Part shown: positions 33,987 through 44,255 of the stretch, piece after piece
How the letters are laid out: each line of letters starts with the position of its first letter
How positions within the stretch are numbered: position 1 is the stretch's first letter
DNA from: Spirochaetae bacterium HGW-Spirochaetae-1
GTDB taxonomy: Bacteria > Spirochaetota > UBA4802 > UBA5550
Length of the DNA stretch: 64,000 bases
NCBI GenBank assembly: GCA_002839375.1
Contig: PGXY01000011.1
Coordinates: 186,001 to 250,000 of the forward strand
Direction: 5' to 3'
Translations under genes and position numbers: made by a program
The notes under the pieces: generated by a model
The model's database searches: none
What the model was told of the DNA's origin: nothing
What the model saw: only the letters and a program-made list of their open reading frames with translations

Positions 33987-35342
33987 TCAATAATTAATCA
34001 ATTCACTCCGGTGCCGGTGAAGGGCATGCTGTATTTCAGGACTCATGAACTTCCTCATCATGGGGCCCGACAGGTGAGTGTGGACATCGATGCCTTCCTT
34101 TCGCGTTGAATCGGGCATGAAAAGCAAGGACCAGGGGACGGGATAGGTGCCGATGGTGATCCAGAAGGGAGCGCCGCTCCCGAAGTCGGCGCCATAGCCA
34201 TTATACGGAGCATCGCTGGAGATGAAGAGGTCGTCCCTGAAGGGATCATAGTCGGCGAATACCCTGAGAAGCTCACCCTTGCGGAAGCGGTGACGGAGCC
34301 AGGCCATCTGTTCGTTGATGGCGCCCTGGTCTATGGCATTCACCTGCTTTCTGCTGATAGCGGCGACCTGCGAAAGGGGCGCCCGTACCAGGGTTTCGTG
34401 GTCCAGGTCCAGGATCATGTGGAGTGATGCATTGCCGAAAAAATGTTCCGGAAGCGGGGGATGGCATTTTTTCCGTATATTGGCCACGAAGAGCAGCCTG
34501 CGGCGGTCTTTGTCTTTGTCCTTTAACGAGGCCATGACCTGCCAGAGATGGCCGCAGAGCGCGTCGTTGGTGGAAATCCGCTGCGTTTCGCCCGTATCTG
34601 ACCGGGATGCTGCCTTTTTCATATTATCAAGTTCCCCTCGCGTGAAATGAATTATTTCACTGTGTATGCTTCTCTTGCTGCGGAGAAACTGCACGGCCGA
34701 GCGCAGCATGCCGCTCCGGGAGAGGACACGGAATCCGCGGTGATGCCGGGGATAATTCTCCAGGGCCATTTCATTTTCAAGAAGCATGCGGTCATGGCAG
34801 GGCGGCTCAAAGGGCAGTCCCCGATGGGTCCGTGCCCAGGAGTCTATAAAGTGGAAGTAGCTTTCTCCGTCGGCGATGCTGTGGAGAATGCTCACGCCCA
34901 GTACGGAGCCTCCTCCCTGCATGTGTGTCAGTTTGATTGTAGCCAGGGGATAGTTCCTGTTTTTTACCTTCCAGGGGACAATATCATCGATGAAACGGCG
35001 GGATATATCCTTGGCGTGATTGGCTGGACCGTAATCTGCCATGGGCATGACGGAATGAGCTACGGTGAAGCGAAGGCCGTGGTCATTGCAATGGACATAC
35101 TGTTGCCCTTTTCTTTTATCGTTCCGGAGTCTTCCCGTGAGCACGGGGAATTCCTTCAGTGTTTTCACAAGGGACGCCTTCAGGGATTTCTCATCCAGGC
35201 TGTTCCGGAAAAAAAAGGCGAAGCCTATGGCGTATATTCCTTCGTATATGTCAAGAGAGGTCAGAGGGACAATTCCTTTGTCGTCCGTATCTCCTCGTAT
35301 CAATTCGACCACTGTTTTCATTGACGTCTTCCCGGTGACCAT
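33987..35342 (-). CDS. BAHD-like acyl-CoA-dependent acyltransferase
   Basis: About 451 aa, the usual BAHD length. The catalytic HxxxD motif is H154-SIA-D158, followed by G. A second motif DFGSG about 230 residues later matches the structural DFGWG of plant BAHD enzymes. These transfer an acyl group from CoA to an alcohol or amine. BAHD proteins are mainly known from plants and fungi, with bacterial relatives less studied. It is coupled to the previous acyltransferase (the ATG follows 2 bp after that stop codon). It is the last gene of the left biosynthetic arm. ATG 35342 is preferred over TTG 35348; ATG 35321 is possible. Confidence 0.75.
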   Translation of the reverse strand: MVTGKTSMKTVVELIRGDTDDKGIVPLTSLDIYEGIYAIGFAFFFRNSLDEKSLKASLVKTLKEFPVLTGRLRNDKRKGQQYVHCNDHGLRFTVAHSVMPMADYGPANHAKDISRRFIDDIVPWKVKNRNYPLATIKLTHMQGGGSVLGVSILHSIADGESYFHFIDSWARTHRGLPFEPPCHDRMLLENEMALENYPRHHRGFRVLSRSGMLRSAVQFLRSKRSIHSEIIHFTRGELDNMKKAASRSDTGETQRISTNDALCGHLWQVMASLKDKDKDRRRLLFVANIRKKCHPPLPEHFFGNASLHMILDLDHETLVRAPLSQVAAISRKQVNAIDQGAINEQMAWLRHRFRKGELLRVFADYDPFRDDLFISSDAPYNGYGADFGSGAPFWITIGTYPVPWSLLFMPDSTRKEGIDVHTHLSGPMMRKFMSPEIQHALHRHRSELINY

Positions 35343-35344
35343 GA

Positions 35345-36691
35345 TCAATCGATAGTATTCAAGATGAGAGACACAGCATGGTCGGCGATGCTTTCCAGGT
35401 GTTTTCTTGAGTAGAGCGGGTCAGTGGCGACAAAGTTCCAGGTCATGCAACGGTCCGTCATTGCAATGATGGAATAGATCATTCCCGAGGCCCGGCTCGA
35501 CGAGGCGAAGCCCAGGCTCTCGATATTCAGATTGCTTCGTGTTGTCCCCATGTCGATCCTCCCCATGTTACTCACAATGGTCATTTTCTGTTTGAAACCG
35601 GCATAGAAACGGTCCAGCGACCGGGCCGCGAAATTGTCGTGGCCTATCCAGCGTATGATGCCGTCGTAGAGGTTCAGGCCCAGGAGATGGAGCATGGGCT
35701 CTCGGGCCTCAATGCTTTCCAGAAGGTCACTCCGGTGTTCACGGGCCAGTTCCCAGAGGCTGCCACGGATATCGACACGGTGAACCGTGTTGCATGAGCC
35801 GGCAAAGTTGCCCATATCACCGTCTGCCGCTCCGGAGAGTATGTTGCGCAGGTTTACTGCCGACATGAGGGCCATGGAAACGGGTTTCCGGTGGTCAAGG
35901 TCGTGGGCAAGGGCCATGAGGTGCGCTGCCGTGAGCGCGCTGTTAACGGTTGTGCCTTCACTTCTGGCTTTTTCTGAAAGTTTTTTCACCGTTGTACCGT
36001 CAATCTGACGTGGGACTATCTGTATCCATCGTTCATGGAGGGGAGCCTGGCCGTCATACTCCGGCATTATGGAACCGCCTGATTCTCTGAGATGCTTCAT
36101 GTAATGGTGGTTGATTTTCATATAAGCCAGAGCTCCCGGGATACCTCTTGTTTTCCGGGGGAAATAGGCCTCCATCTTTTTTTTGAGTATCAGGGGCTGG
36201 ATATCCATGATTGTTTCATCATTAATGAAAGCAAGGAGATCGCGCATCATGCCGGCACCCGCCATGCCGTCGCCTATGGTATGGGAATAGGTGATCAGTA
36301 TTGTTGACCTGCTATTGCCATGTGTCGCAAGGACACAGCGGAGCAGGGGGCCCCGGTCAATGGGAAGGGGTGTGTTCAGTTCACTTTCCGCGACGGTATG
36401 CCAGGATTCCTCGGGCAGGGATATTACTCTCAGCGGTATCGCGGGCACGCCGCCGCTCATAAACCGTGGTCCTGAACGCCGCCTGTCGATTCTGACCGTC
36501 ATGAGGGGGTGCCGTTTCTGCAGCAGGTCCAGGGGCCGGCGGAGCATATCCTCCGTGATGTGACCGGCCACCCGGGCATGGACCACAACATTGGTGTGGA
36601 GAAAATTCTGGAGCATGAGATGGTACCGTTCGAGTCCCCCGAGCTTTCTCGCGACAGTTTCTTTTGTTTCCGTAGCGTTTTTTCCATTCAT
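35345..36691 (-). CDS. Condensation-domain / PapA-like acyltransferase
   Basis: 448 aa stand-alone condensation-fold protein. The HxxxDG motif is H137-TIG-D141-G, in ITYSHTIGDGMAGAGMM. Later segments (AHLMALAHDL, NMGRIDMG) fit the wax-ester-synthase, PapA5 and alcohol-acyltransferase group rather than a modular NRPS domain. It probably esterifies a hydroxyl on a lipid or glycoside. It lies 36 bp after the FkbM gene and overlaps the region of the BAHD start, so the two acyltransferases appear translationally coupled. Confidence 0.78.
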   Translation of the reverse strand: MNGKNATETKETVARKLGGLERYHLMLQNFLHTNVVVHARVAGHITEDMLRRPLDLLQKRHPLMTVRIDRRRSGPRFMSGGVPAIPLRVISLPEESWHTVAESELNTPLPIDRGPLLRCVLATHGNSRSTILITYSHTIGDGMAGAGMMRDLLAFINDETIMDIQPLILKKKMEAYFPRKTRGIPGALAYMKINHHYMKHLRESGGSIMPEYDGQAPLHERWIQIVPRQIDGTTVKKLSEKARSEGTTVNSALTAAHLMALAHDLDHRKPVSMALMSAVNLRNILSGAADGDMGNFAGSCNTVHRVDIRGSLWELAREHRSDLLESIEAREPMLHLLGLNLYDGIIRWIGHDNFAARSLDRFYAGFKQKMTIVSNMGRIDMGTTRSNLNIESLGFASSSRASGMIYSIIAMTDRCMTWNFVATDPLYSRKHLESIADHAVSLILNTID

Positions 36692-36727: not shown

Positions 36728-37573
36728 TCACCTGCGGGCGTATAGATTATAGGTGGGTGATTTGATCACTTCGCACCAGTGCGGTTGTTCGGCAACTACA
36801 TGGGCAAAGCCCTTCTTTTTCAGCAGATCCGATACCGCTGCGAGCCGGCCGTCAATATCATGCACTTCCATGACTATCTGCCGGATTTTCGGCCAGTCGC
36901 CGTCGGCGATTCCCCTCAGGATGTCCAGTTCGGCGCCTTCAGTGTCAATTTTCAGGAGATCTATGGTTGTTACGGAAAATTCCCGCATAACCGATGAAAG
37001 GGAAGTAAGGGGACATTTCACTTCACGCGCCGCCAGGGACTTTTCAATTTTATTCCGTATGAGCCATCGTCGTGCGGGGTAGAGAATCATGAGAAGAAAG
37101 TAAACGGCGGGATTGGTCTCTTTCAGCAGATGCAGTACATCATCGGGATCGGTGTCATGGTACATTTTTTCTTTTTCAGCCCTGTTCATGGTGGAATTGC
37201 CGCTCATGGCGGTATAGCAGGTAAAGACCGCTTCACGGGGCCCATCGAGGCGGGTCAGTCCCATGTTGAATAATTTGATGCGGCCTCTGTGATCCAGGGC
37301 GTCAATATTTTTTTTAAGAATTGAAAATGTCTCGGGTATGGGCTCAAAGGCGTACATGGAGATGTCATTACCGCATTCACGGGAGGCAAAAAGGGAAAAC
37401 ATGCCTATATTGGCCCCGGCGTCGAAGACCGTATCGCCGTGTTTCAGGGTGATGCCGTGGCGCAGGTATTCTTTTTTAATGAAAATCTCATCATATATGA
37501 AACGTGCTTCCTCGATGGTGTGAAAATAAATCTTTCCCTGGTCCGGGAATATAAGGTAATTTTTTTTATTCAT
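36728..37573 (-). CDS. FkbM-family SAM methyltransferase
   Basis: 281 aa. The SAM-binding glycine motif is VFDAGANIGMFS (about residues 49-60), followed by YAFEPIPETFSILKKN and the FkbM signature LLKIDTEGAELDILRGI. FkbM enzymes O-methylate sugars and polyketide hydroxyls. AGAGGA precedes the ATG at 37573, which lies 1 bp after the glycosyltransferase stop codon. The frame is open further upstream, but that part is antisense and out of context. It likely methylates the sugar added by the glycosyltransferase. Confidence 0.82.
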   Translation of the reverse strand: MNKKNYLIFPDQGKIYFHTIEEARFIYDEIFIKKEYLRHGITLKHGDTVFDAGANIGMFSLFASRECGNDISMYAFEPIPETFSILKKNIDALDHRGRIKLFNMGLTRLDGPREAVFTCYTAMSGNSTMNRAEKEKMYHDTDPDDVLHLLKETNPAVYFLLMILYPARRWLIRNKIEKSLAAREVKCPLTSLSSVMREFSVTTIDLLKIDTEGAELDILRGIADGDWPKIRQIVMEVHDIDGRLAAVSDLLKKKGFAHVVAEQPHWCEVIKSPTYNLYARR

Positions 37574-37574
37574 T

Positions 37575-38873
37575 TTACAATCCTCTGGAAAGGGATATTT
37601 CGTTGTCAGGTTTTTCATGGTGGAACAAGAACCGGTTATTGGATAAGCGGGCGTTGATAATTTCGGCGGCAATGGCGGCGCCGTTATTTTCAGCATGCAT
37701 GGTTTCTCCCAGGGCCCTGGCCCTGACAGCCATGCCGCTGTCGTTGAGTATCCGCCGTATGCCCGCGGCGAGCAGCCGGGACGAGAACTTTTTACGGTCC
37801 ATAGATCGCGGTGCCACACCTATATCCTCCAGCACCCTTCCGTAATATTTCTGATCGGCAATGTGATGGACCACCAGTGACGGAACGCCGGCCCTGCATG
37901 CCGCGTAGGACGTACCTGCGCCGCCGTGATGAACAACCATCCTGACATTTTTAAACAGATAATCATGGGGGACATAGTCGACAAAATGGACATTGTCGGG
38001 ACACGACGCTGCTTCGATCATGCCCCAGCCGCGTTGTATTACGGCGCTGATGCCCGTATCGGCGATTGCCTCGAGGAATATTTTCGCAACGATATCCCCA
38101 TCCTCGCCGCCCATGGAGCCAAACGTGAAGGCTGCCTCGGGCTTGCGTGTCCTGATAAAATGTTCAAGATTTTCGTCGATCACCGGGGATTCGCCTTCAC
38201 GCAACCAGGGACCAGTGGGAATGAACGAGGCCGGCAGGTCGGGATAGACTTTACCCAGGTAGCGGGATCCGGCTATGAAATTGAGATCCGGAGAGTAATT
38301 GCCGAATACGCTTGATTTTCTTTTTCTGCCGTCGAGTCCGCAAAGGAAGCTGCTCACATGCCGGTCCAGGGGCGCCATGCTTTTCTGCGCCACTTTCCAT
38401 AACAGGGAGTTTACCACGGTTCCCATATCGGGGATGTCCATGGGGCCGTGGTATTTTGTGGGGATCATGCCGGGGCAGAGAATGACCGACGCCCAGGGCA
38501 GGTTGTTTGCCGTCACGGCATGCTGTCCTGTCACGTCGAAGGTGTGACAGACGGCGAAGTCGGCTCCCCGTGACGCCTGTACGCAGTCATGATAGCGTTT
38601 TTCCCCGTCGGCAAGTATCACCTCGTTAACGATGTGCCGGTACTGTCGGATCCGGTTCATGTGCCTGGTTCTCTCCATGAGGCTGCGGATCTTATCCAGG
38701 TCCAGGGGATCGCCGGCGGCATGGAAGGGAATGCCCCGGGATTCAAAGAGATGCCGATATATGTGGCCCGATATTACTTTTACCTCGTGACCTTCTCTGA
38801 GGAGTTCCCGGGCAAGTGGAATGAAGGGCTCCACGTCTCCGGTGCTGCCCACTGTTGTAATTGCTATTTTCAT
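37575..38873 (-). CDS. GT1/UGT-like glycosyltransferase
   Basis: 432 aa GT-B enzyme of the UGT/MGT (GT1) type. The opening MKIAITTVGSTGDVEPFIPLA is typical of sterol and rhamnolipid glycosyltransferases. The donor-binding loop VVHHGGAGTSYAACRAGVPSLVVHHIADQ is nearly complete, and TFGSMGGEDGD lies before it. Such enzymes attach a sugar from a nucleotide sugar to a lipophilic acceptor. It is the first gene of the left arm, which reads away from the OleA-like genes across 38874-39260. Confidence 0.85.
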   Translation of the reverse strand: MKIAITTVGSTGDVEPFIPLARELLREGHEVKVISGHIYRHLFESRGIPFHAAGDPLDLDKIRSLMERTRHMNRIRQYRHIVNEVILADGEKRYHDCVQASRGADFAVCHTFDVTGQHAVTANNLPWASVILCPGMIPTKYHGPMDIPDMGTVVNSLLWKVAQKSMAPLDRHVSSFLCGLDGRKRKSSVFGNYSPDLNFIAGSRYLGKVYPDLPASFIPTGPWLREGESPVIDENLEHFIRTRKPEAAFTFGSMGGEDGDIVAKIFLEAIADTGISAVIQRGWGMIEAASCPDNVHFVDYVPHDYLFKNVRMVVHHGGAGTSYAACRAGVPSLVVHHIADQKYYGRVLEDIGVAPRSMDRKKFSSRLLAAGIRRILNDSGMAVRARALGETMHAENNGAAIAAEIINARLSNNRFLFHHEKPDNEISLSRGL

Positions 38874-39260
38874 GAAGAATATGCCCCGGCTGCAGGTTTT
38901 TGTCCAACTGGTTTTATTTACTCGTTTAGCGCTAAATTCAGATACCTTTTTTATGCATAGCCACTATCTGTCAAGTTTTATGTTGTATCATGGAGTTTAT
39001 GTGAGTTATAAATCACTAATTTATACTATTTTTCGTAAAAAATCATTGACGTTATTAGTGCATAATATACTTCAGTCAACCTGACATAAAGAAAATTGAG
39101 TTGGAAAAATTTATATAAATAAATATACTAAATTGCACATAAAAATTCATACAACCTTCTCCTGAAAATTCAACTGATACAACTGTTACATAGCAATATG
39201 ATGGCAGTCTCCTGAAGGTAGTATTTTCTGCGCACTTTAAAACAAACCGGAGGGACGTCT
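38874..39260. other. Divergent intergenic region between the two biosynthetic arms
   Basis: A 387-bp AT-rich gap between the diverging glycosyltransferase and OleA-like genes. It must hold the promoters of both arms. A TTGACG at about 39047 and several TATA-like stretches are present, but no pair has good spacing, so no promoter is called. No coding potential was seen. Confidence 0.5.
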
Positions 39261-40304
39261 TTGAACAGAGCACGAATTGAGAGTATCGGTTTATATCTGC
39301 CCGAGACCGTGGTCTCCACAGAGGAATTGGTATCGAGGATGAATACCAAGCCAATTTTTGATCTTGAAAAAATCACGGGCATCAAAAATCGTCGGTTCCG
39401 CAGCGACAGCAAGGGTGAAGATACCAGCACCCTGGCCCTCAACGCGGCCAGGGACTGCCTGGAGAGATCGGGCTATGATGCGGCAGATATGGACATTATA
39501 ATAAATGCTTCAATTTCGAAATACAACGGCAGCCATGTCTGCTATTTTGAACCGACACTGAGCCATTTTGTCAAAAACGGGCTGGGAGCCCATAACGCCA
39601 TCAACTTCGATATAGCCAACGCCTGCGCCGGCATGAATACGGGCGCCATGATTTTAAACAACATGATCCGGTCCGGTGCGGTCAGGCGGGGCATGGTGGT
39701 GAGCGGGGAATGCATCACGCCTATCGCCGACACTGCCATTAAAGAAATCAGCGAGCCCATGGACGACCAGTTTGCCTCACTCACCGTGGGGGACTCCGGG
39801 GCGGCCTTCATAATGGACGAGTCGCCCGACGGGAAAGAGGGTTTTGATTTTATCGATTTCACCACCGTGGCCCATTACGCGGAGCTCTGTTTCGGAATGC
39901 CCAGTGAAAAGAATCCCGGCATCGCCATGTATACCAGGAGCAAGGAAATGCACAACAAGGACCTGGTGAACACATGGCCCCGACTCCTGGCAGACCATTT
40001 TGAAAAAAAGGGGACGATGTTCAATCCTCTGGACTACGATTACATCATCACCCATCAGGTGACTGTAGGGGCCATCAAGACATATCTGAAGGCCGGGAAA
40101 GAGTATTTTGACACCGATATGCCGGCCACTCTGACCAGCGTGGAAGAGTATGGCAACACCTCCACCACCACGCACTGGGTTGTGATATACAACGCCCTGA
40201 AGGAGAAAAAAATCAAACCGGGAGACCGTATTCTTCTTCTGTCATCGGCATCGGGTATTGCAATCGGTTTTCTTTCTTTCACAATCGGGAACATTGAGGT
40301 TTAA
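39261..40304 (+). CDS. oleA: OleA-like thiolase, catalytically complete subunit
   Basis: 347 aa KAS III/OleA-type enzyme. The catalytic triad is intact: C122 in NACAGM, H265 in ITHQV and N299 in EYGNTS. E97 in CYFEPTL lines up with the Glu that OleA uses to activate its second acyl chain. OleA joins two fatty acyl-CoAs head to head, giving a 2-alkyl-3-ketoacid. A TTG start at 39261 has GGAGGG 7 bp upstream. The following gene encodes a second, degenerate thiolase, so the pair probably forms a heterodimer, as proposed for LstA/LstB and NltA/NltB. It is the first gene of the right biosynthetic arm. Confidence 0.82.
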   Translation: MNRARIESIGLYLPETVVSTEELVSRMNTKPIFDLEKITGIKNRRFRSDSKGEDTSTLALNAARDCLERSGYDAADMDIIINASISKYNGSHVCYFEPTLSHFVKNGLGAHNAINFDIANACAGMNTGAMILNNMIRSGAVRRGMVVSGECITPIADTAIKEISEPMDDQFASLTVGDSGAAFIMDESPDGKEGFDFIDFTTVAHYAELCFGMPSEKNPGIAMYTRSKEMHNKDLVNTWPRLLADHFEKKGTMFNPLDYDYIITHQVTVGAIKTYLKAGKEYFDTDMPATLTSVEEYGNTSTTTHWVVIYNALKEKKIKPGDRILLLSSASGIAIGFLSFTIGNIEV

Positions 40305-40305
40305 C

Positions 40306-41196
40306 ATGGGAACAGTAATACGATCGACATTTGTCAGTATGGATAAAAATATACACAGCTCCATAGAACACGCGACCTGTGCAGCCCGGGAGTGTATTTC
40401 CGGTGCCGGAATAGATAAGGATGATATCCAGCTCATCATAAACACCGGCGTGTACCGCGACCATAACATTGTGGAACCCGCCATTGCGGCCCTGATACAA
40501 CAGAGACTGGGCATCAACCCGGAGTTTAAAAACGGGAAGAAAACTTTCGGCTTTGATCTCATCAACGGGTCCTGCGGTTTTCTCAACGCCGCGCAGATTG
40601 TGAAATCAATGTTCGACAACGGGGATATCCGATATGCCCTGGTTGTCTCGGGCGACGTGCATCCCTCGAAGCAGGAAACGGAAGAATTTCCTTTTACCCA
40701 CAGCGGTTCCGCCGTGCTTTTCGAGAACACCGGCGATGAAAAGGGGTTTCAGGATTTCATGTTCAGGACGACTCAGGATATATACGAGGGATTTAAATCA
40801 GTCGTGGATGTACGGATCTACGGCAGCCAGGGAAGAGGAAATATTGCTTTTGATATAGACAAAGACTATCCCGATCACCTTGCCGCTTTCACCGGTGAGT
40901 CCCTGCAGCGTTTTTATGACGAAAACAGCCGGCTCAGGGAGATCGATCGTGCCGCGGTCAAGCTTGTCACATCACAGCCAGTGAAAGGATTTGGAGAAAA
41001 GATTCTTGCCGGGGCAGGGATTGATTCCATTTCCGCCATCTGTGTCCATGATAAGTACGGAGACTCTCACAGTTCCAGTCTGCCCCTGGCCTATCATGAG
41101 GGCAGGGAGAACGGATTCATCGGTGATGACAACAGGATCATGTTCGTCGGGGCCGGAGCGGGGCTTACCGTTGGGCTGGGTTATTATATCTCGTGA
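40306..41196 (+). CDS. Degenerate OleA-like thiolase, partner subunit
   Basis: 296 aa, shorter than a normal KAS III because the first ~40 residues are missing. The Cys is kept (C90 in NGSCGF) and so is the EP Glu (E57 in VEPAIA). The catalytic His position reads VTSQPV (Ser213) and the Asn position reads KYGDSH (Asp243). It therefore should not work alone and most likely pairs with the gene before it. GAGG precedes ATG 40306, 1 bp after the upstream stop codon, so the two are tightly coupled. Confidence 0.75.
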   Translation: MGTVIRSTFVSMDKNIHSSIEHATCAARECISGAGIDKDDIQLIINTGVYRDHNIVEPAIAALIQQRLGINPEFKNGKKTFGFDLINGSCGFLNAAQIVKSMFDNGDIRYALVVSGDVHPSKQETEEFPFTHSGSAVLFENTGDEKGFQDFMFRTTQDIYEGFKSVVDVRIYGSQGRGNIAFDIDKDYPDHLAAFTGESLQRFYDENSRLREIDRAAVKLVTSQPVKGFGEKILAGAGIDSISAICVHDKYGDSHSSSLPLAYHEGRENGFIGDDNRIMFVGAGAGLTVGLGYYIS

Positions 41197-41245
41197 GGAG
41201 ATCAGGATCGGGGCGGAGCCACATTGCTTCAAAAACGGGAATCAT

Positions 41246-41557
41246 ATGAATAAAAAAAACAATAGTAACGATGAAAATGCAGACAAGGGCAGGAAAAGAA
41301 TTTTTGCTTATTCCTCCATGGCCGTGGCCCTCCTTCTTCTGCCCGCCGGGATGTATGGTATCGCAGTGATTTCGGGCCGGCCCCTTTGGGGACTATCGGC
41401 CTTTCTCGTGACCCTGGCCCTTCATCTTCCACAGCTTCCCGGGGCCTATAGGATAGGCAGGAAAAAAAATCTTTCCACGGCAAGGATAGTGTTCATGACG
41501 GTATTTTTCGGCGCTTCGTGGTGGAAACCACTTGAAAAAGGGATCATAGACAGATAG
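41246..41557 (+). CDS. Small membrane protein in the OleA-OleD gap
   Basis: 103 aa with a charged, Lys/Asn/Asp-rich N-terminus (about 20 residues) and two membrane helices (~26-46 and ~48-68), then a basic C-terminal tail. Family unknown. It lies between the thiolases and the OleD-like gene in the same orientation (15 bp to OleD), so it is likely part of the pathway, perhaps as a membrane anchor or product exporter accessory. Confidence 0.6.
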   Translation: MNKKNNSNDENADKGRKRIFAYSSMAVALLLLPAGMYGIAVISGRPLWGLSAFLVTLALHLPQLPGAYRIGRKKNLSTARIVFMTVFFGASWWKPLEKGIIDR

Positions 41558-41572
41558 AGCGGGGCTGATGAA

Positions 41573-42604
41573 ATGAAAGTTTTGATCACCGGTGCAAGCG
41601 GATTTCTTGGAAGCCACATTGTCGATGCCTGTATCGAACGGGGCGACATGGTTCGCGTCCTGGTCCGTGCATCCAGCGATATATCCTACCTTAAGAAATA
41701 CGACAATATTGAATATGTCCCGGGAAGTGTTGAGGATGGCTCTTCGCTGCGAAAGGCTGTAGATGGCATTGAGGCCGTGTACCATTCCGCAGCCCGATCC
41801 GCTGACTGGGGGACCCGCAGCCAGTTTTACGAAGCTAATTACCTCGGGACGAAAAACATGCTGGATGCCTGCAGGGCCGGCCGTGTGAAACGGCTGGTAT
41901 ACGTGAGCAGCCCCAGTGTCGTTTTCGATTATCACGATGAAAACTTTATAGACGAGGCGCAGCCGTATCCGCGCCGGTATGCCAATGTCTATTCCGAGAC
42001 CAAGGGCGAGGCGGAAAAACTTGTCCTGACGGAAAACGGCGCAGGTGGGCTTACCACCGTGGCACTTCGTCCCCATGCCATATGGGGCCCCCGGGATCGC
42101 ATAGGTTTTTTCCCGCAGATTCTTTCACAGATACGGGCCGGGAAATTCAAGGACCTCTCGGGCGGCCGTAAGATACTCGTTGATCTTTGTTACGTCAAGA
42201 ACGCCGCCCGGGCCTGTATCCTGGCCGCCGAATCATCGCGTGCCGAAGGCAGAGTCTATTTTATTACCGATAACGAGCCGCAGGGCATCAGGGAATTCGC
42301 TGCCCGGGTCTGCGCCCTTTTTGATCTGCCCGAACCGGTTGGTTCCGTCAGCCCCCGAACAGCCATGGTTGCGGCTCGTCTCATAGAAACAATCTGGAGG
42401 CTTCCTGGCCTGGCCGGGAAAAAACGGCCTCCCTTCACGCGCTATTCCGTAGGAATACTCACCTGTTCCACGACATATTCCATCGAAGCGGCGCAGCGTG
42501 ACCTGGGATACAATCCCGTTATAGATGTATCAACGGGATTACGCATTCTGAAGGAGTGGATAGATGAAACGGGAGGTGTTGATGAGTTCCTTAAATATAC
42601 CTGA
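41573..42604 (+). CDS. oleD: OleD-like NAD(P)H-dependent 3-ketoacid reductase
   Basis: 343 aa extended SDR. The cofactor motif is TGASGFLGSH (residues ~6-15), then YHSAARSADWG, the serine region YVSSPSVVF, and YxxxK in NVYSETKGEAEKL. LRPHAIWGPRD is typical of the OleD/3-beta-HSD-like branch. In the Ole pathway OleD reduces the 2-alkyl-3-ketoacid made by OleA to a 3-hydroxyacid, the substrate for OleC. The oleC-like gene overlaps its 3' end. Confidence 0.8.
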   Translation: MKVLITGASGFLGSHIVDACIERGDMVRVLVRASSDISYLKKYDNIEYVPGSVEDGSSLRKAVDGIEAVYHSAARSADWGTRSQFYEANYLGTKNMLDACRAGRVKRLVYVSSPSVVFDYHDENFIDEAQPYPRRYANVYSETKGEAEKLVLTENGAGGLTTVALRPHAIWGPRDRIGFFPQILSQIRAGKFKDLSGGRKILVDLCYVKNAARACILAAESSRAEGRVYFITDNEPQGIREFAARVCALFDLPEPVGSVSPRTAMVAARLIETIWRLPGLAGKKRPPFTRYSVGILTCSTTYSIEAAQRDLGYNPVIDVSTGLRILKEWIDETGGVDEFLKYT

Positions 42605-44255
42605 TGTTCGCGAGATCGTCAATATATCGGTTCATCTGAAAAAACATGCCGCCACGGACCCAAACCGGAAGGCCATAATCGTGCCGATGCTGCGCGGCGG
42701 CGACGGACGTCGTTCCTATGATCATTACACTTTCGCATGGCTCGACGGGAAGTCAGATAATTATGCCCGGGGTTTTATCTCGGCAGGAATACATCGCGGT
42801 ACAAAAACCATAGTCATGGTACGCCCCGGCATCGATTTCATTGCCATTACATTTGCACTCTTCAAGATCGGTTCCATACCGGTATTTGTTGATCCCGGCA
42901 TGGGAATAAGGCGCATGCTCCACTGTTTTAACGAGACCGGGGCCCAGGCCTTTATCGGTATTCCCATTGCCCATGTCATACGTGTTCTGGGCAGGGGATA
43001 TTTCCGAACCCTGAAGTCATGGATCACTGTGGGCCGGCGTTGGTTCTGGGGCGGATTTACGCTGGAAGATATGGACATAGATGAAAAGGATGAGTTTGTC
43101 ATTGCTGAAAGCGATCCAGACGAACTGGCCGCCATTTCCTTTACTACGGGAAGCACCGGTCCGGCCAAGGGGGTTTCCTATACCTGGAAAAACATGGACG
43201 CTATGCTCAGGCAGCTTAAGGAACAATTCAATCCCGGACCGGGTGATATAGACTGTCCCACGTTTCCGCTCTTTGCCCTGTTTGACGCAGCATCGGGCTG
43301 TACCGCGCTTCTTCCCGACATGGATCCACAGAAGCCGGCCCAGGTCAATCCCGATAATATAATTGAAGCAGTCCGTGACTACAGGGTGTCCATGATGTTT
43401 GCTTCACCGGCCCTGCTCAACCGTGTGGGGCGCTATTGCAGGGATCGGGACATATCACTTCCCTCCCTGCGCACCGTTATCTCGGGCGGTGCTCCTGTCT
43501 CGGGTGCTATCATGCGCTGTTTCAAATCAGTCATGGCCGATGAAGGGGAGCTCTATGCCACATACGGCGCCACGGAATGCCTGCCTATATCATCCATCGG
43601 CAGCCGCGAGCGTCTTGAGCCTGCCATGGACTCTATGACAAACAGCGGTATGGGAACCTGCGTAGGACTCCCCTGCGGGCTCGATGTAAAGATAATCGCC
43701 ATTACCGATCTGCCCGTGGACTCGTTATCTGAGGATATCCTTGTGCAGGGGAGGGGTATCGGGGAGATAATAATTTCCGGAGATCACGTGAGTCCCTGTT
43801 ACTATGAGAGGGCCGCCGACGATGCACTGGCAAAAATTTATGACCGCAACAAAACCTGGCACCGCACCGGTGATCTGGGGTGGATTGATGCCCAGGGGCG
43901 CATCTGGTTCTGCGGCAGGAAAAAACATCGTGTCGTCACGGACGGGGGAACCCTCTACAGTATTCCCTGCGAGGCCGTATTCAATACACATCCCGCTGTT
44001 TTCAGGAGCGCCCTGGTGGGAGTCCCCCGGGACGGATACCAGAAACCGGTCATGTGCATAGAACTGGAAAAAGCACACCGGGAGATGAATACCGACAGAC
44101 TTGAGAGAGAGCTGCTGCAGATAGCACGGAGAAAAGAGATCACGAAGAATATCGATACGATACTATTTCATCCGTCATTTCCCGTGGACATCCGCCACAA
44201 CGCCAAGATATTCCGTGAGAAGCTGGCACTGTGGGCCGCGGCACGGCTGAAGTAG
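42582..44255 (+). CDS. oleC: OleC-like beta-lactone synthetase (ANL adenylating enzyme)
   Basis: 557 aa AMP-forming ANL enzyme. The A3 loop is SFTTGSTGPAKGVSYT, then YATYGATECLP, TGDLGWIDAQGR and, near the end, NAKIFREKLA with the catalytic Lys. FVDPGMGIRRMLHCFNETG near residue 115 matches OleC proteins. OleC closes 2-alkyl-3-hydroxyacids to cis-beta-lactones. In olefin pathways OleB then removes CO2; no OleB-like gene lies beside it, so the lactone may be the end product. ATG 42582 has GGGAGG 5 bp upstream; ATG 42564 with AAGGAG is an alternative. It is the last gene of the right arm. Confidence 0.83.
   Translation: MSSLNIPDVREIVNISVHLKKHAATDPNRKAIIVPMLRGGDGRRSYDHYTFAWLDGKSDNYARGFISAGIHRGTKTIVMVRPGIDFIAITFALFKIGSIPVFVDPGMGIRRMLHCFNETGAQAFIGIPIAHVIRVLGRGYFRTLKSWITVGRRWFWGGFTLEDMDIDEKDEFVIAESDPDELAAISFTTGSTGPAKGVSYTWKNMDAMLRQLKEQFNPGPGDIDCPTFPLFALFDAASGCTALLPDMDPQKPAQVNPDNIIEAVRDYRVSMMFASPALLNRVGRYCRDRDISLPSLRTVISGGAPVSGAIMRCFKSVMADEGELYATYGATECLPISSIGSRERLEPAMDSMTNSGMGTCVGLPCGLDVKIIAITDLPVDSLSEDILVQGRGIGEIIISGDHVSPCYYERAADDALAKIYDRNKTWHRTGDLGWIDAQGRIWFCGRKKHRVVTDGGTLYSIPCEAVFNTHPAVFRSALVGVPRDGYQKPVMCIELEKAHREMNTDRLERELLQIARRKEITKNIDTILFHPSFPVDIRHNAKIFREKLALWAAARLK

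Follow-up and report, generated by a model that had tools for sequence, protein, structure and literature searches.

Does a spirochaete gene cluster that resembles those of lipstatin and olefin biosynthesis make a long-chain beta-lactone, or does it lead to a membrane hydrocarbon or a mycolate-like lipid? Long-chain beta-lactones are covalent serine-hydrolase inhibitors, and lipstatin is the lead for orlistat; to our knowledge, the described lst and nlt producers are actinobacteria. The cluster lies at 39261-44255 of the window, by which we mean the whole 64,000-nucleotide stretch analysed here, part of a 387-kb contig in a 5.2-Mb assembly that is 96.5% complete. A sequence-only reading of this DNA had recognized two adjacent thiolase genes, an extended SDR gene and an OleC-type ANL gene, all co-oriented, and coordinates and family scans bear this out; the same reading overlooked a fifth gene, which encodes a 103-aa membrane protein. 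It had also named no described case in the phylum as known to it, and in the literature searched, with most subscription journals outside its scope, we found no described spirochaete Ole pathway or lactone; papers that mention both beta-lactones and spirochaetes appeared, by title and abstract, to be surveys.

The five genes form a single operon on the + strand, in the order A-A'-membrane protein-D-C, with flagellar hook and rod genes flanking the cluster on either side. OleA, an LstA-type KAS-III and the predicted catalytic subunit (39261-40304), starts at a TTG codon preceded by GGAGG and is followed after 1 bp by OleA', an LstB-type KAS-III homologue (40306-41196). The small membrane protein gene (41246-41557) sits between OleA' and OleD, the latter an LstD-type extended SDR of the 2-alkyl-3-oxoalkanoate reductase kind (41573-42604). 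OleC, a predicted LstC-type ANL beta-lactone synthetase, has no OleB domain and extends to 44255; its reading frame opens at 42564, and the ATG at 42582, preceded by GGGAGG, is the better start. Upstream, an AT-rich divergent intergenic region (38874-39260) likely holds the promoters of both this operon and a second one on the - strand.

The KAS-III pair

Both OleA and OleA' matched PF08541/PF08545 (KAS-III) in the family scan. OleA carries the full Cys-His-Asn triad (C122, H265 and N299) and E97 within an E-P motif, whereas OleA' has lost the triad, with S89, S223 and D253 in its place, and retains E57 of the E-P motif. The LstA protein of lipstatin biosynthesis has the triad C128, H271 and N305, and E60 of its partner LstB is essential, as the E60A substitution abolishes activity (PMC12141560). 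The numbering of the three OleA residues runs 6 below that of LstA throughout, and retention of Glu-Pro together with loss of the triad was found in 18 of 18 OleA'-type partners. An AF2 model of OleA' (pLDDT 84; input rows for the AF2 jobs were free of plasmid-derived sequences) matched FabH and OleA in a fold search, placing it in the thiolase/FabH fold. OleA and OleA' should therefore work as an LstAB-type heterodimer, as we infer from these residues. In the OleA tree the window protein falls with LstA and NltA, opposite the canonical olefin OleA (99/98), to which it is about 25% identical, and the closest relatives of both OleA and OleA' in the trees are pairs from sister spirochaetes, some linked to OleBC. 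No canonical FabH was seen in the source genome, where OleA as query matched only OleA and OleA' (E<0.001).

The sequence-only reading had counted the two OleA-like genes as evidence for a lactone, and this argument fails. Two same-family genomes, G019 and G017, encode OleA, OleA', an OleBC fusion and OleD, so we rejected two OleA copies as a beta-lactone marker; because the KAS-III pair also occurs with OleBC, support for a lactone has to come from elsewhere. Proteins of the OleA' type scored strongly in four genomes, and OleC proteins above the family cut-off were found in three of the 393 Spirochaetota genomes, all of the same family, with the source genome as the only one lacking OleB.

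Same-family pairs also occur with other partners. G017 has three more OleA/OleA' pairs, none with OleC or OleD adjoining. Five loci of the family that hold such pairs (L076, L077, L078, L079 and L080) include one adjoined by an acyl-carrier-like 95-aa ORF (L077) and one with aconitase X, OleD and an FMN/FAD oxidoreductase nearby (L079). These varied partners suggest several different products. In Nocardia colli (L064:7582-13040), a pair lies between a wax ester synthase-like protein and a luciferase-like monooxygenase, again with no OleC adjoining.

OleB, OleC, OleD and the small membrane protein

The same-family genomes that join this type of KAS-III pair with an OleBC fusion raise the possibility of an olefin pathway, in which OleB is missing from the assembly or is replaced by another hydrolase and the lactone is decarboxylated to a membrane hydrocarbon, the outcome expected in the sister genomes with OleBC. 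We searched the whole genome with a profile of seven OleB proteins and with a single OleB query, and OleB was found neither in the cluster nor elsewhere in the 96.5%-complete genome, which upholds and extends the earlier observation that the cluster has no OleB. Among sixteen OleB proteins taken from OleB-containing loci, the scores span 223-508 bits and HDWGG is always present, whereas the best hydrolase of the source genome reaches 117 bits and has a Ser nucleophile. The genome does encode many alpha/beta hydrolases, and a lone one has an Asp nucleophile (GHDWGA, HGFP; 80 bits), which together with the incompleteness of the assembly leaves some room for the olefin route; however, no hydrolase of the source genome bears the OleB signature, HDWGG plus HGNP[ST]WS.

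OleD and OleC, like OleA, were compared with references drawn from 321 gammaproteobacterial genomes, 297 actinobacterial genomes, plasmids, and Nocardia and Myxococcales loci, in which lactone type and olefin type were sorted by the presence of OleB in the locus and not by known product. OleD contains the motifs GASGFLG and YSETK, and its best NCBIfam matches, scoring 237 and 234 bits, are the two models for 2-alkyl-3-oxoalkanoate reductase (OleD); the next family reaches 131. Its tree places it with lst, nlt and Myxococcales proteins in a nine-row set (100/100), although moving the window protein alone to the olefin type was not rejected (p-AU 0.095). OleC contains FTTGSTGPAKG and RHNAKI and passes NF006754 (677 bits against a cut-off of 478), and on two olefin beta-lactone synthetase models it scores 544-555 bits, under their cut-offs of 850-900. 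Sixteen olefin-type proteins form a clade (100/99) that excludes the window OleC; its grouping with the lactone clade has moderate support (72/76), and forcing it into the olefin clade was not rejected (p-AU 0.098). A kinship with lst/nlt proteins is thus supported for OleA and OleD; OleC stands outside the olefin clade in the best tree, with the join to the lactone clade less firm. The sequence-only reading had named a grouping of OleC with ordinary acyl-CoA ligases as fatal to it; the tree shows no such grouping, and OleC lies far from the acyl-CoA ligases of its own genome.

The OleBC fusions of two spirochaete genomes (L043:4141-6843 and L044:6938-9610) deserve mention in their own right, as their OleC part groups with gammaproteobacterial OleC and not with actinobacterial OleBC. 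An OleBC fusion in Granulosicoccus has been reported as the first outside Actinobacteria (PMC7064751, 2020). More distant OleC-like ligases, in G018, G015 and three other spirochaete genomes, score under the family cut-off, and those of G018 and G015 were set aside as OleC candidates, being outside the OleC clade in the tree; in two sister genomes (L045 and L046), distant OleC-like ligases lie in a conserved neighbourhood unlike the Ole cluster.

The gene overlooked earlier adds a further line of evidence. An HMM built from seven lst, nlt and Myxococcales clusters found the window ORF with E=7e-9 among 8334 ORFs, and the small-protein family is present in all seven lipstatin/nocardiolactone-type clusters examined, whereas none of about 16 OleB-containing clusters was matched. 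Nine alignment columns are invariant, including H60, Q63 and W92-W93. No Pfam family or PDB fold was matched (best E 3 in the fold search), and we do not claim a PQ-loop-like identity, for which a sub-threshold Pfam match was the sole basis. The protein is free in Nocardia-type and Rhodococcus loci, and in Streptomyces and Myxococcales it is joined to the C-terminus of OleC; because homologues are fused to OleC, we suggest that it works with OleC. The link of the window cluster to lipstatin and nocardiolactone appears strengthened by this common component. Taken with the missing OleB signature and with best trees that place OleD and OleC outside the olefin clades, its presence makes us regard the olefin pathway as very unlikely for this cluster.

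The divergent operon and the predicted product

We consider it likely that an LstABCD/NltABCD-type pathway leads here to a long-chain alpha-alkyl beta-lactone. By residue identity with LstAB, OleA and OleA' would form a heterodimer in which Cys122 of OleA carries one fatty acyl group while Glu57 of OleA' helps to take a proton from the alpha-carbon of the second acyl-CoA, so that an alpha-alkyl beta-keto acid results. As expected from their families, OleD would reduce the ketone to a beta-hydroxy acid, and OleC, with ATP, would adenylate the acid and close the beta-lactone ring; fusion and neighbourhood point to the small membrane protein as the membrane partner of OleC. Because there is no OleB, within the limits of genome completeness, the lactone would escape decarboxylation and be an end product or a late intermediate.

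The weakest step of this scheme is possible glycosylation, methylation and acylation of the lactone by the adjoining operon. This tight four-gene operon begins 387 bp upstream of the Ole operon and encodes, according to family scans and motifs, a macrolide-type glycosyltransferase (PF06722; 37575-38873) as its first gene, an FkbM-type O-methyltransferase (36728-37618), a PapA/condensation-type acyltransferase with HTIGDG (35345-36691) and a BAHD acyltransferase with HSIAD and DFGSG (33987-35348), all on the - strand. The BAHD gene is the sole PF02458 match in the 393 Spirochaetota genomes and has no match among the plasmids, and the PDB proteins that it most resembles are plant hydroxycinnamoyl transferases (6.6e-28). 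Membership of these genes in the pathway is putative, and they may decorate its product.

The same operon suggests another reading, in which OleA, OleA' and OleD make an alpha-alkyl beta-hydroxy acid that OleC merely activates, as an AMP derivative or a transient lactone, before the acyltransferases of the divergent operon move it to a sugar, yielding a mycolate-like glycolipid. A glycosyltransferase, two acyltransferases and a methyltransferase next to the cluster, including a BAHD gene unique to the source genome among the 393 Spirochaetota genomes, would suit such a product. However, the membership of OleC in its family, its score over the NF006754 cut-off and its distance from the acyl-CoA ligases of the genome all argue against this reading, and the co-function of the two operons is itself putative; genes of the divergent operon were not found next to the other loci, whether with a KAS-III pair or of the lactone type, except for a weak glycosyltransferase match (25%) at one Streptomyces locus. 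We therefore think this glycolipid unlikely.

Together, the trees, the absence of OleB and the small membrane protein support the long-chain beta-lactone predicted by the sequence-only reading, which we regard as well supported but unproven. The spirochaete is thus probably the producer of a new lipid enzyme inhibitor. A more far-reaching proposal, which we advance tentatively and hold to be doubtful, is that the product is a glycosylated, BAHD/PapA-acylated long-chain beta-lactone of a type unknown in any organism, and that the small membrane protein serves generally as a hitherto unrecognised subunit, attaching lactone-type OleC/LstC, the lipstatin enzyme included, to the membrane and helping to keep lactone production apart from olefin formation. 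Restricted in our sample to lactone-type loci, the small membrane protein points to a testable and overlooked part of lipstatin biosynthesis.

Comparison with known clusters

The locus would bring an LstAB-type heterodimer into Spirochaetota, and thus a known kind of cluster into a new phylum. The lipstatin cluster lstABCDEF of Streptomyces toxytricini likewise combines a triad-bearing LstA and a triad-less LstB with an essential Glu, an LstC-type ANL enzyme and an LstD-type reductase, with no OleB in the cluster; it differs in phylum and gene order and in having the LstE NRPS and the LstF formyltransferase, in whose stead the window has the operon for a glycosyltransferase, acyltransferases and a methyltransferase. 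NRPS and formyltransferase genes are a lipstatin hallmark. None adjoins the cluster in the window, whereas they are present in the lipstatin look-alikes of Streptomyces and Rhodococcus plasmids (L098-L100); on the Rhodococcus plasmid the same gene set as ours adjoins them, with the small membrane protein free as here, and in Streptomyces that protein is fused to OleC. Nocardiolactone-type nltABCD clusters (Nocardia; look-alikes L092 and L128) share two KAS-III proteins, OleC, the small membrane protein, OleD and the lack of OleB in the cluster, but belong to a different phylum, have the order A-B-C-membrane protein-D and are about 35-48% identical. Olefin clusters of the oleABCD or oleA-oleBC-oleD kind (Xanthomonas, Shewanella, Micrococcales) share the OleC and OleD families and the predicted chemistry up to the beta-lactone; they differ from the window cluster by the presence of OleB, by having only one OleA, of about 25% identity, and by the small membrane protein, which was not found in them. 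The OleA-OleA'-OleBC-OleD clusters of same-family spirochaetes (MAGs Zod_Metabat.1046 and.30) share the type of OleA/OleA' pair (51-52% and 42-44% identity) but have an OleBC fusion and an olefin-type OleD. Such sister genomes, in which the same type of heterodimer goes with an OleBC olefin module, offer a natural comparison for the choice between lactone and olefin.
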